A stretch of DNA of 64,000 bases, taken from contig PAAX01000011.1 of assembly GCA_002698995.1 (NCBI GenBank), forward strand, positions 1 to 64,000, read 5' to 3'. Source of the DNA: Ignavibacteriota bacterium (GTDB taxonomy: Bacteria; Bacteroidota; Ignavibacteria; Ignavibacteriales; Melioribacteraceae). Under the pieces are notes generated by a model. That model saw only the letters and a list, made by a program, of their open reading frames with translations. It ran no database searches and was not told the DNA's origin. The position numbers were made by a program, and so were the translations under genes. Below, piece after piece: positions 8,974 to 11,430 of the stretch (position 1 is the stretch's first letter; each line of letters opens with the position of its first letter).

Positions 8974-9627
8974 ATGAAATCAATTAAAGCAAAAAAAGTT
9001 AAAGAAAGCAGAATACCTTTCGATTGGAATAATGAATTTTGGAGCGATATAAATTCTGCTGAATTAGATTATCATAGAAAGGAAAATCAGCAGTTTCCAG
9101 AAGTTGAAGTGAAAATTTGTCATTCAGAAAATGATATAATTTTATTCTGGTTGGTTAAAGAAGAAGAGATAGTTTGCAATCATAAAAATCATTTTGATAG
9201 AGTTTACCAGGACAGCTGCGTTGAGTTTTTTGTAAAGCCTAATGGTGCAAAAGGATATTTCAATTTTGAAATTAATTGTATCGGAAAAATATTATGCTAT
9301 TATGTAACTGACTGGATAAGGAATGAATCGGGTACTTTGAAAGGTTTTTCAAGATTGGATTTGAATGATATAAATAAAATTCAGATAGAAAATTCAATTG
9401 AAGAATCTGATACAGCAGCAGATGAATGGTTTATGTTAGTTAAAATTCCTAAATCAATTTTAATTTCTAACTCAGAATTATCAGAATTAGATTACCGTAA
9501 ATCTTGGAGAGGAAATTTCTACAAATGTGCGGATGCATCATCACTTCCCCATTGGAGTTCATGGAATCCGGTTACGGAATTAAATTTTCATCAGCCAAAA
9601 GATTTTGGTGAAATTATATTTGAATGA
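8974..9627 (+). CDS. CBM9-like carbohydrate-binding family protein
   Basis: A 217-residue protein without a signal peptide. The pattern of beta strands, with an early FDWNNEFW segment, a central DSCVEFFVKP and NFEINCIG, and a C-terminal WRGNFYKCAD followed by HWSSWNP, resembles the family 9-like carbohydrate-binding proteins found in Bacteroidota. The family usually binds sugars, but free-standing members like this one have no defined role. It follows glnS after a hairpin and may be read through or have its own promoter. Family recognition is by eye from these motifs. The function in this genome is not established. Confidence 0.7.
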   Translation: MKSIKAKKVKESRIPFDWNNEFWSDINSAELDYHRKENQQFPEVEVKICHSENDIILFWLVKEEEIVCNHKNHFDRVYQDSCVEFFVKPNGAKGYFNFEINCIGKILCYYVTDWIRNESGTLKGFSRLDLNDINKIQIENSIEESDTAADEWFMLVKIPKSILISNSELSELDYRKSWRGNFYKCADASSLPHWSSWNPVTELNFHQPKDFGEIIFE

Positions 9628-9635
9628 ATAATAGA

Positions 9636-9667
9636 TTTGAAAATCGGAAATAATTGATTATTTTTTG
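9636..9667 (+). promoter_or_regulatory. Candidate Bacteroidota-type promoter for tRNA-Leu
   Basis: TTTG at 9636-9639 and TATTTTTTG at 9659-9667 are separated by 19 bases. This resembles the -33 TTTG / -7 TAnnTTTG promoter of Bacteroidota, with one extra T in the -7 element. Transcription would start a few bases before the tRNA at 9681. Confidence 0.35.
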
Positions 9668-9680
9668 AATTCTAAAAAAT

Positions 9681-9766
9681 GCCGAAGTGGCGAAATTGGT
9701 AGACGCGCTGGACTCAAAATCCAGTCGGGGTTAAACCCGGTGCCGGTTCGAGTCCGGCCTTCGGTA
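9681..9766 (+). tRNA. tRNA-Leu (CAA)
   Basis: A class II tRNA of 86 bases. The acceptor strands GCCGAAG (9681-9687) and CTTCGGT (9759-9765) pair with a closing G-U, and discriminator A is at 9766. The anticodon stem CTGGA/TCCAG encloses loop CTCAAAA, giving anticodon CAA, which reads UUG. A long variable arm (about 9726-9740) and a T arm GCCGG-TTCGAGT-CCGGC at 9742-9758 are present. The CCA end is not encoded. Two copies of its 3' half occur downstream, each after a GIY-YIG ORF. Confidence 0.97.
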
Positions 9767-9786
9767 CAAAAAAAATCATAACTACG

Positions 9787-10032
9787 TTGTTCACTGTTTA
9801 CGCTATAAAAAGTATTTCCCATAAATTTATCTATGTCGGGATGACCACTAACCTTGATGAAAGACTTTATCAGCATAATTCAGGTTTTAATAAATCCACA
9901 AAACCTTATAAACCTTTTAGACTCATTTATACTGAAGAATTTGAATCTTCTATTAAAGCTAGAATTCGTGAAAAACAATTAAAAACTGGTAAGGTAAAGA
10001 AATTTTTGTACTCTTTAATTGAACAAGAATAA
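9787..10032 (+). CDS. Small GIY-YIG nuclease-domain protein, copy 1
   Basis: An 81-residue protein made only of a GIY-YIG fold: VYAI near the start, FIYVGMT as the YIG strand, the Arg of DERL, and REKQLK with the likely metal-binding Glu. These are the catalytic positions known from UvrC and I-TevI. The codon matching the ATG of copy 2 is ACG here (9784-9786), so translation would need the next codon, TTG at 9787. There is no Shine-Dalgarno sequence in the 20 bases after the tRNA, so expression is doubtful. The stop TAA (10030-10032) lies in sequence matching the tRNA variable arm. It may be a decaying homing-type nuclease. It is not a UvrC fragment, since no other UvrC domain is present. Confidence 0.75.
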   Translation: MFTVYAIKSISHKFIYVGMTTNLDERLYQHNSGFNKSTKPYKPFRLIYTEEFESSIKARIREKQLKTGKVKKFLYSLIEQE

Positions 10033-10082
10033 ATCCGGTGCCGGCCTACTGCGTAGGTAAATTCGAGTCCGGCCTTCGGTAC
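10030..10082 (+). pseudogene. Displaced tRNA-Leu 3' half, copy 1
   Basis: 10030-10044 matches the tRNA variable arm and 5' T-stem (9732-9746) with one mismatch. 10062-10082 matches the T-loop through the 3' acceptor strand (9747-9767) exactly. Between them lie 17 inserted bases. There is no 5' half, so it cannot fold as a tRNA. Confidence 0.9.
10045..10061 (+). repeat. Single 17-base palindromic unit in the T arm
   Basis: CCTAC-TGC-GTAGG plus TAAA, inserted exactly between the T-stem GCCGG and the T-loop TTCGAGT of the displaced tRNA fragment. The 5-bp palindrome can form a small hairpin on top of the T stem. Confidence 0.9.
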
Positions 10083-10192
10083 TTTTCAATTTACAATTCA
10101 GAATTTATAATTTACAATTGCTTCTTCAAGTTAGATTTGTTAATTAGTCCAATTATTTTTTTGATATCGAATTATTTTTCACAGGTTTTTCA

Positions 10193-10441
10193 ATGTTGTT
10201 CACTGTTTACGCTATAAAAAGTATTTCCCATAAATTTATCTATGTCGGGATGACCACTGACCTTAATGAAAGACTTCATCAACATAATTTCAGTTTTAAT
10301 AAATCCACAAAACCATTTAAACCTTTTAGACTCATTTATACTGAAGAATTTGAATCTTCTATTAAAGCTAGAATTCGTGAAAAACAATTAAAAACTGGTG
10401 TGGGAAAAGATTTTTTGTATTCGTTGATTGAAGAAGGTTAA
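10193..10441 (+). CDS. Small GIY-YIG nuclease-domain protein, copy 2
   Basis: An 82-residue GIY-YIG-only protein, about nine-tenths identical to copy 1. Differences cluster at the C-terminus and in the YQHNSG/HQHNFS region. VYAI, FIYVGMT, NERL and REKQLK are intact, so catalytic competence is plausible. It starts at ATG with a modest ACAGG upstream, making it the better candidate for a working gene. The stop TAA at 10439-10441 lies inside an exact 18-base match (10436-10453) to the tRNA variable arm and T-stem, so the ORF is joined to tRNA sequence at its last codons. Free-standing GIY-YIG proteins are known as homing-type or repair nucleases. Its target here, possibly the tRNA-Leu gene, is my inference. 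Confidence 0.8.
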   Translation: MLFTVYAIKSISHKFIYVGMTTDLNERLHQHNFSFNKSTKPFKPFRLIYTEEFESSIKARIREKQLKTGVGKDFLYSLIEEG

Positions 10442-10525
10442 ACCCGGTGCCGGCCTACTGCGTAGGTAAACCTACTTCATAGGTAGACCTACTCCGTAGG
10501 TAGATTCGAGTCCGGCCTTCGGTAC
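10436..10525 (+). pseudogene. Displaced tRNA-Leu 3' half, copy 2
   Basis: 10436-10453 is identical to tRNA positions 9729-9746, and 10505-10525 is identical to 9747-9767. A 51-base insert separates them at the T-stem/T-loop junction. The acceptor 3' strand and T-loop are conserved, but there is no 5' half. Confidence 0.9.
10454..10504 (+). repeat. Three tandem 17-base palindromic units
   Basis: Units at 10454-10470, 10471-10487 and 10488-10504. Each is CCTAC, three variable bases (TGC, TTC, TCC), GTAGG or ATAGG, then TAAA or TAGA. The first equals the single unit in copy 1. The array sits exactly between GCCGG and TTCGAGT of the tRNA-derived T arm. Confidence 0.92.
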
Positions 10526-10668
10526 TTTTCAACTTTCAATTTACAATTCAGAATTTATAATTTACAATTGCTTCTTCAAGTTAGATTTTAAACTCACCCA
10601 ATAATTTTATATGAAATTAACTTATCTTGCAAAAAGTATTTTTCAATTTTAGAATTGGTAAAATTATT

Positions 10669-11430
10669 ATGAGACATTACATTCTTGAAGAAACTAATTG
10701 GAAACATCTTAAGGAAAGAAAAATTGAACTTGCAATTCTTCCTTGGGGTGCCACTGAAGCACATAATTATCATCTCCCCTATTCAACTGATGTAATTGAA
10801 TCTAATTACATTTCTCATGAAGCTGCAAGAAAAGCCTATGAGAAGGGGGCTGATATTATAGTATTACCAACGGTTCCTTTTGGAGTTAATACTGGTCAGA
10901 CAGATATACTATTAGACATAAACATTTATCCATCAACACAATTAGCGATTCTGCATGATATTATTGAAGTATTGAATAGGCAAGGAATTAATAAATTACT
11001 GATTTTGAATAGTCACGGCGGAAATGATTTCAAACCGATTTTGAGAGAACTTGGAGTAAAATTTCCTAATATGTTTTTGACTCTTTGCAATTGGTATTCA
11101 ACAGTTAATAAGGAAAAGTACTTTGATAATTCCGGTGATCATGCAGATGAAATGGAGACAAGCATAATGTTAAACATCGCTCCGGAATTAGTTCTTCCAT
11201 TAAATGAGTCAGGTTTTGGAATTGAGAAGAAGATAAAAATAAAAGGGATTAAAGAAGGATTTGCATGGACAGAAAGAAAGTGGTCAAAGGTAACTAACGA
11301 CACAGGAATTGGAAATCCTAAAAAAGCCTCCTCTGAAAAAGGGGAAATATTTTTAGAAGATTTAACTAATCAGTTAAGTGATTTGCTAATTGAAATCTGC
11401 AATGCTGATTTAAATAATCTTTATGAATAA
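10669..11430 (+). CDS. Creatininase-family amidohydrolase
   Basis: A 253-residue metal-dependent amidohydrolase. Family signatures are WGATEAHNYHLPYSTD (metal-binding Glu/His/Asp), LNSHGGND and GDHADEMETS. The family cleaves cyclic or linear amides (creatinine, formamidopyrimidines, the mycofactocin precursor peptide), so the substrate cannot be read from sequence. I chose ATG at 10669 over an in-frame TTG at 10627, because the extra 14 residues are not family-like. It converges on the amidoligase cluster with only 3 bases between stop codons. That proximity makes a shared pathway possible, but they are separate transcripts. Confidence 0.85.
   Translation: MRHYILEETNWKHLKERKIELAILPWGATEAHNYHLPYSTDVIESNYISHEAARKAYEKGADIIVLPTVPFGVNTGQTDILLDINIYPSTQLAILHDIIEVLNRQGINKLLILNSHGGNDFKPILRELGVKFPNMFLTLCNWYSTVNKEKYFDNSGDHADEMETSIMLNIAPELVLPLNESGFGIEKKIKIKGIKEGFAWTERKWSKVTNDTGIGNPKKASSEKGEIFLEDLTNQLSDLLIEICNADLNNLYE

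Follow-up and report, generated by a model that had tools for sequence, protein, structure and literature searches.

The window analysed here, by which we mean the whole stretch of 64 kb that opens contig C16 in a 4.23-Mb assembly, contains a tRNA-Leu(CAA) gene within which lie two tandem units of what is probably a free-standing, homing-type cassette, belonging to a lineage specific for tRNA-Leu. On one strand (the forward strand, as for all window coordinates below) the order is a complete tRNA, ORF 1, broken tRNA copy 1, ORF 2 and broken tRNA copy 2. The complete tRNA-Leu(CAA), recognised from its ARAGORN structure and by Rfam, lies at 9681-9767 and is the sole tRNA of the window; the best other full-length match to it elsewhere in the assembly has 84% identity. 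Rfam reported only the tRNA over 9500-10700, and a group I intron was ruled out because the tRNA is intact and there was no intron match in that interval.

ORF 1 (9787-10032) encodes 81 aa from a TTG codon and ends with a TAA at 10030-10032, and ORF 2 (10193-10441) encodes 82 aa from an ATG codon and ends with a TAA at 10439-10441. Both are GIY-YIG ORFs that match PF01541 (E=2e-16 and 60.4 bits for ORF 1, E=1.3e-14 and 54.7 bits for ORF 2, against a gathering cutoff of 22.6). Broken copy 1 begins at 10027-10044 (GAATAAATCCGGTGCCGG) with a segment that runs from the variable arm to the 5' T stem and contains the ORF 1 stop; it is identical to 9729-9746 of the tRNA at 15 of 18 positions and is more decayed than its counterpart in copy 2 (GGTTAAACCCGGTGCCGG, 10436-10453). 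It can be seen that both broken copies are interrupted by palindromic inserts at the border between T stem and T loop, of 17 nt in unit 1 (10045-10061; hairpin CCTACTGCGTAGG plus TAAA) and of 51 nt in unit 2 (10454-10504; three 17-nt hairpin units, CCTACTGCGTAGGTAAA, CCTACTTCATAGGTAGA and CCTACTCCGTAGGTAGA), after which the remainder of the tRNA, positions 67-87, follows with 21/21 identity at 10062-10082 and at 10505-10525. The two units are 276-nt repeats with 92% identity. The ORF 1 frame stays open back into the tRNA over 9703-9786, and an ACG stands at the position of the ATG of ORF 2; ORF 1 may start at the TTG at 9787, or may be inactive.

The first-pass annotation had placed the ORF 2 stop codon inside tRNA-derived sequence, and this was borne out. 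The segment 10436-10453 was re-found as tRNA positions 49-66, with 18/18 identity to 9729-9746, and the TAA at 10439-10441 is the tRNA TAA at 9732-9734, which belongs to the variable arm according to the ARAGORN bracket structure. The stop of copy 1 was likewise correctly assigned to the same tRNA place, though there the surrounding match is the decayed one, so that in both units the coding frame enters the 3' half of the tRNA and is ended by the variable-arm TAA. Chance is ruled out for the shared TAA because the units are repeats of each other and because each unit is followed by the second exact 21-nt match, collinear with the first. The further claim that the junction is thereby fixed to the variable arm holds in both window units but not as a rule across related cassettes: when their junctions were compared, the idea that the stop always comes from the variable arm failed in a tally of 108 3'-type junctions, and we reject it as a general law. 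Even among Leu(CAA) cassettes a variable-arm stop is seen only in the two window units and at L173; the stop lies ahead of the tRNA match at L014, L017 and L129 and within the insert at L021, L022 and L044. Since stop sites differ in this way among related cassettes, we conclude that the common variable-arm TAA is a local outcome of the fusion point of this cassette.

What is general is a very tight ORF-tRNA junction. For the 148 ORFs with tRNA-derived sequence no more than 400 nt downstream, the median gap between ORF and tRNA sequence is 0 nt; 77 stops fall within or overlap the tRNA sequence, 36 are at most 10 nt away, 22 are 11-50 nt away and 13 are farther. A further 103 ORFs had no tRNA sequence detected downstream, a figure that includes an unlinked clade and frameshifted ORFs and that reflects a fragment search requiring exact 8-mers, by which decayed remnants are missed. 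At the 108 3'-type junctions the first retained tRNA base lies in the D arm (47), the anticodon arm (23), the variable region (18), the acceptor (12) or the T arm (8). The stop is inside tRNA-matching sequence in 27 of them, 17 of these in the D arm (for example, the Cys TAA at tRNA positions 21-23 and the D-loop TAG of Pro and Val); 9 stops straddle the start of the match, 21 are inside an inserted hairpin, 25 lie at most 10 nt upstream of the match and 26 farther upstream. The tRNA sequence thus often provides the stop because the ORF extends to or into the broken copy; once fused, an ORF probably just ends at whichever in-frame stop comes first in the tRNA sequence.

The window units are members of a wider group. 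The host assembly has ten more GIY-YIG matches besides the window ORFs, and four of these loci (L003, L005, L006 and L011) likewise flank tRNAs, for Cys, Met, Ser and Arg, respectively. Matches are present in 48 of 57 genomes of the same bacterial family, and a search of genome contigs for related loci yielded a single locus. A named relative is an uncultured Ignavibacteriales contig, from which we take the sampled phylum to be Bacteroidota. With a ten-sequence profile at E<=1e-9, matches turned up in 91 of the 148 genomes examined from across the phylum. Some 180 loci, picked by similarity to the window ORF, were examined; many are related to each other, and locus counts do not equal independent events. 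Where a tRNA was nearest within 400 nt (259 ORFs considered), it was on the same strand in 172 cases and on the opposite strand in none, and a search for partial tRNA copies against 186 intact tRNAs gave 204 on the same strand, a few of which are neighbouring paralogous tRNAs, compared with 9 in the antisense control. The isotypes include Leu, Ser, Cys, Asn, Met, Arg, Pro, Asp, Lys, Val, Gly, Glu, Ala and Gln, and the cassette layout recurs at some 20 isotypes in many families, in two mirror forms: intact tRNA, ORF and broken 3' part, or broken 5' part, ORF and intact tRNA. Taken together, these loci form a family of tRNA-linked GIY-YIG cassettes that spans the phylum.

Some relatives stand apart from tRNAs. 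One clade without tRNA linkage (L008, L010, L012, L114, L119 and L121) serves as an internal contrast. L007 (G000:C26:1392-4622) has a GIY-YIG ORF at about 1486-1749 without a recognisable tRNA and with CCTACTNCGTAGG palindromes near the ORF at C26:2468, 2485 and 3420; its clade (L065, L077 and L097) is also not linked to tRNAs. L152 (G103:C34:5900-10900) contains eight GIY-YIG ORFs at a spacing of about 360 nt, with no ARAGORN tRNA in the 5 kb. At L004 (G000:C7:1-2195) a Cys-type ORF and part of its leader stand at the contig start with no tRNA near; this is a solo or displaced cassette. L092 (G013:C97) has, at about 429-852, tandem broken tRNA-Ser(TGA) remnants with a period of about 203 nt and no ORF between them.

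Comparison of filled and empty sites shows that the cassette is inserted inside the tRNA gene. Within one genus, a Gly-TCC cassette is present in G023 and absent from G043. Filled and empty loci correspond as far as the intact Gly tRNA extends (filled 625-1006, empty 359-752). They correspond again from where the broken copy reaches tRNA position 10, on through the native tRNA-Thr (filled 1356-1792, empty 687-1128), and 349 bp and a 66-bp duplication are the extra sequence of the filled locus. It follows from this match that the native downstream flank has stayed with the broken copy, counted from its position 10 onwards. The same pattern was seen for Lys, where the filled array contains an N gap, and for Cys, with G023 again filled and G043 empty. 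No GIY-YIG ORF was found in the empty Gly-TCC, Lys or Cys loci, where the tRNA of the sister species is joined directly to the flank that trails the broken copy. In the Cys array the resident gene is split, its 5' piece lying leftmost, its 3' piece rightmost and the intact copy in between. The broken copy is disrupted, but nothing visible shields the cassette's own intact tRNA, whose sequence does not differ from that at the empty site for Gly, Lys (two pairs) and Asn: of the five pairs compared once the Ser pair had been set aside, four show no protective substitution, and Cys differs at two positions. Presence in one genome and absence from the other could also mean that repeat recombination removed a cassette, not that one was gained. 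Two candidate comparisons were rejected: the Ser-GCT locus of G038 as an empty site, for an ORF remnant is present, and Lys in G016 and G040 as a clean pair, for G040 carries a decayed remnant. For the window locus itself, the loci of 16 relatives around the downstream creatininase-like gene were searched for an empty site and none had a tRNA.

The sole protein of the cassette is an 82-aa GIY-YIG nuclease. Residues Y6, Y17, G19, R27, H31 and E63 are invariant in 52 sequences. The AlphaFold model of ORF 2 (82 aa) gives a confident GIY-YIG fold (pLDDT 92.5), which among solved structures comes closest to UPF0213 BH0048 and Slx1, then to the I-TevI and UvrC domains; in the model the protein amounts to the catalytic domain plus one C-terminal helix, with no separate DNA-binding domain. 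A 139-ORF tree, built on few columns and with many open forks, required 40 changes of isotype over all groups compared with 85 after shuffling (none of 200 shuffles as low), and 24 changes with isotype labels compared with 99 with genome labels. ORF lineages track the tRNA isotype, not the host. The ORFs are under purifying selection, with dN/dS values of 0.07-0.19 between same-isotype orthologues.

Among broken copies close to ORFs, an insert is present in 125, an arm has been swapped in 24, and 25 show neither change. The 162 inserts catalogued are concentrated at loops, 130 touching the D, anticodon or T loop, where 33% of positions would be expected, and the 143 distinct inserts fold with a mean z of -3.2, at most 5% of shuffles folding as well for 71% of them. 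One recurrent insert of 22 nt sits in the T loop between C56 and R57 (Ser, Pro, Lys, Glu and Gly) and consists of two hairpins, each with 4 bp and a 3-nt loop; 97.7% of its cells are paired, six of its eight pairs have changed on both sides, and none of 500 shuffles scored as high. In remnants of Pro, Lys, Val, Gln, Ala and Gly, the anticodon arm has been swapped, exactly at its borders, for another hairpin, often TCCCGA..TCGGGA. Ready-made palindromes inserted independently could mimic covariation, but the constancy of length and site and the precision of the arm borders speak for structural constraint on the hairpins. The broken Ser-GCT copy at L084 (G023:C21) has a separate insert in each retained arm (35|36, 56|57 and 72|73), and its long inserts follow a TCCG...CGAGAT...CGGA-like double-hairpin design in common with L070, L037 and L074. 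The window palindrome CCTACTNCGTAGG also occurs at a few tRNA-free sites in this genome, and clusters of it with no tRNA found lie at G000:C10:92589-92778 and G000:C33:2787-2865 (L192 and L193). A T-loop hairpin as a universal block of the cut site was rejected, as the Gly and Lys remnants of G023 retain their T loop and carry a replacement for the anticodon arm instead.

From this anatomy we infer cleavage and mobility of the cassette. The nuclease would cut the tRNA gene, and repair off a cassette-bearing copy would insert the tRNA part, the ORF and the remnant, the imported tRNA part regenerating the essential tRNA. Tandem arrays could then arise by recombination between the repeated tRNA stretches. 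The hairpins of the remnant would most likely bar its use as a cut site, as a recombination partner or as a tRNA, which is the weakest step of the scheme. A passive origin strikes us as unlikely; in it, tRNA genes would serve as recombination substrates, a tandem duplication would have swept up a small GIY-YIG gene together with a tRNA segment, and the broken copies would be neutral leftovers where dispersed palindromic repeats land. Near-identical tandem units (L046, L115 and L122), decayed remnants (L208 and L199) and the occurrence of CCTACTNCGTAGG-like palindromes away from tRNAs too in this genome are in keeping with it; however, it sits poorly with independent recurrence of the layout at so many isotypes and in so many families with zero strand exceptions, with strong purifying selection on the ORFs, with the excess of inserts that touch a loop, with the precise replacement of anticodon arms at stem borders and with 22-nt double hairpins that change sequence yet hold their length and pairing. 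That the arrangement is an artefact of collapsed or mis-joined repeats we regard as highly improbable: many of the genomes are draft and MAG-like, with N gaps (L206 and L093), but the layout is also found in the single-contig genomes G008, G172 and G083 and at more than 100 loci.

We give somewhat less credence than to passive duplication to a nuclease that cuts the tRNA, or the tRNA gene in invaders, with the arm-swapped remnant as an uncleavable RNA decoy that acts like an antitoxin. The isotype-specific lineages, the setting of hairpins exactly at the anticodon, T and D loops and the structural covariation would suit such a system, as would weak PADLOC matches to candidate defence families and the bacterial fusion of an Slx1-like GIY-YIG domain to a TrmH-type tRNA methyltransferase (PMC1564403), which hints at RNA-linked roles; yet the GIY-YIG enzymes in the review and the matches here are DNA nucleases, and a decoy does not need insertion inside a tRNA gene with regeneration. 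Against the homing reading, the protein, unlike I-TevI, has no separate DNA-binding domain, and its nearest folds are those of structure-specific Slx1 enzymes; how it would single out one tRNA gene by sequence is a serious difficulty for that reading and leaves room for a partner. It is doubtful, slightly more so than for the antitoxin-like decoy, that the hairpin-tagged remnant itself works as a structured RNA (or single-strand DNA) that partners the minimal nuclease as decoy or guide. If it did, the enzyme, with 82 aa and no DNA-binding domain, would owe to the remnant its specificity for a single tRNA gene, and the pair would be a tRNA-derived counterpart of RNA-partnered mobile nucleases.

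Under our preferred reading of a homing-type cassette, a chromosomal nuclease element would have repeatedly invaded essential tRNA genes, apparently rebuilding them and marking the displaced piece with hairpins, which would account for many small GIY-YIG genes that adjoin tRNAs. We found no description of such cassettes in the open-licence PMC literature, and they appear to represent a type of tRNA-invading genetic element not described before. They share with homing endonucleases the presence or absence of the insertion at one site in close relatives (Gly-TCC, Lys and Cys) and lack a separate DNA-binding domain.

The minimal GIY-YIG domains of UPF0213 and Slx1 are the nearest by sequence and structure; they have no known tRNA link, and Slx1 is structure-specific and partners Slx4. 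Integrative elements whose attachment sites are tRNA 3' ends duplicate that end and retain an intact tRNA. In contrast to these, the cassettes have no integrase, are units of 0.3-0.4 kb, and have junctions that range from the acceptor to the T arm. The double-hairpin and repetitive hairpin-forming elements of mtDNA are short, structure-preserving insertions (PMC2800124), but they are mostly intergenic, whereas the cassette hairpins are in the tRNA loops of broken copies beside a nuclease gene.

SegB of T-even phages is a free-standing GIY-YIG homing endonuclease (PMC13096335, PMC2988022), and that of T6 cuts within tRNA genes and yields tandem tRNA+segB repeats, with microhomology between the tRNA and the segB 3' end (PMC13096335); we read its cut motif as a T-loop complement. 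SegB is located between phage tRNA genes, whereas the cassette ORF splits a chromosomal tRNA gene, has just 82 aa, forms isotype-specific lineages and leaves a hairpin-tagged remnant. Membership of the SegB group was rejected: there was no full-length similarity, PHROG gave only weak matches to homing endonuclease families, and no T-even phage was among the tblastn matches. Fungal mitochondrial mobile ORFs (Glomus atp6, atp9, cox2 and nad3, and Allomyces) carry a replacement gene end (PMC3630166). Common to them and the cassettes is an endonuclease ORF within an essential gene and an incoming end that completes the gene while the native end is pushed downstream of the ORF; as in the fungal type, the broken copy of the cassette is contiguous with the native downstream flank. 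The fungal cases differ in that they concern protein genes of an organelle, with LAGLIDADG in the atp6 example, and the passages used here describe the displaced end without hairpin tagging (PMC3630166). The anatomy of the cassette combines features of SegB and of the fungal mobile ORFs, in bacterial chromosomes and with hairpin-tagged remnants. Our best reading is that the cassette is of the free-standing homing type and close in logic to T6 SegB and the fungal mitochondrial mobile ORFs, to which it would be a bacterial-chromosome parallel.
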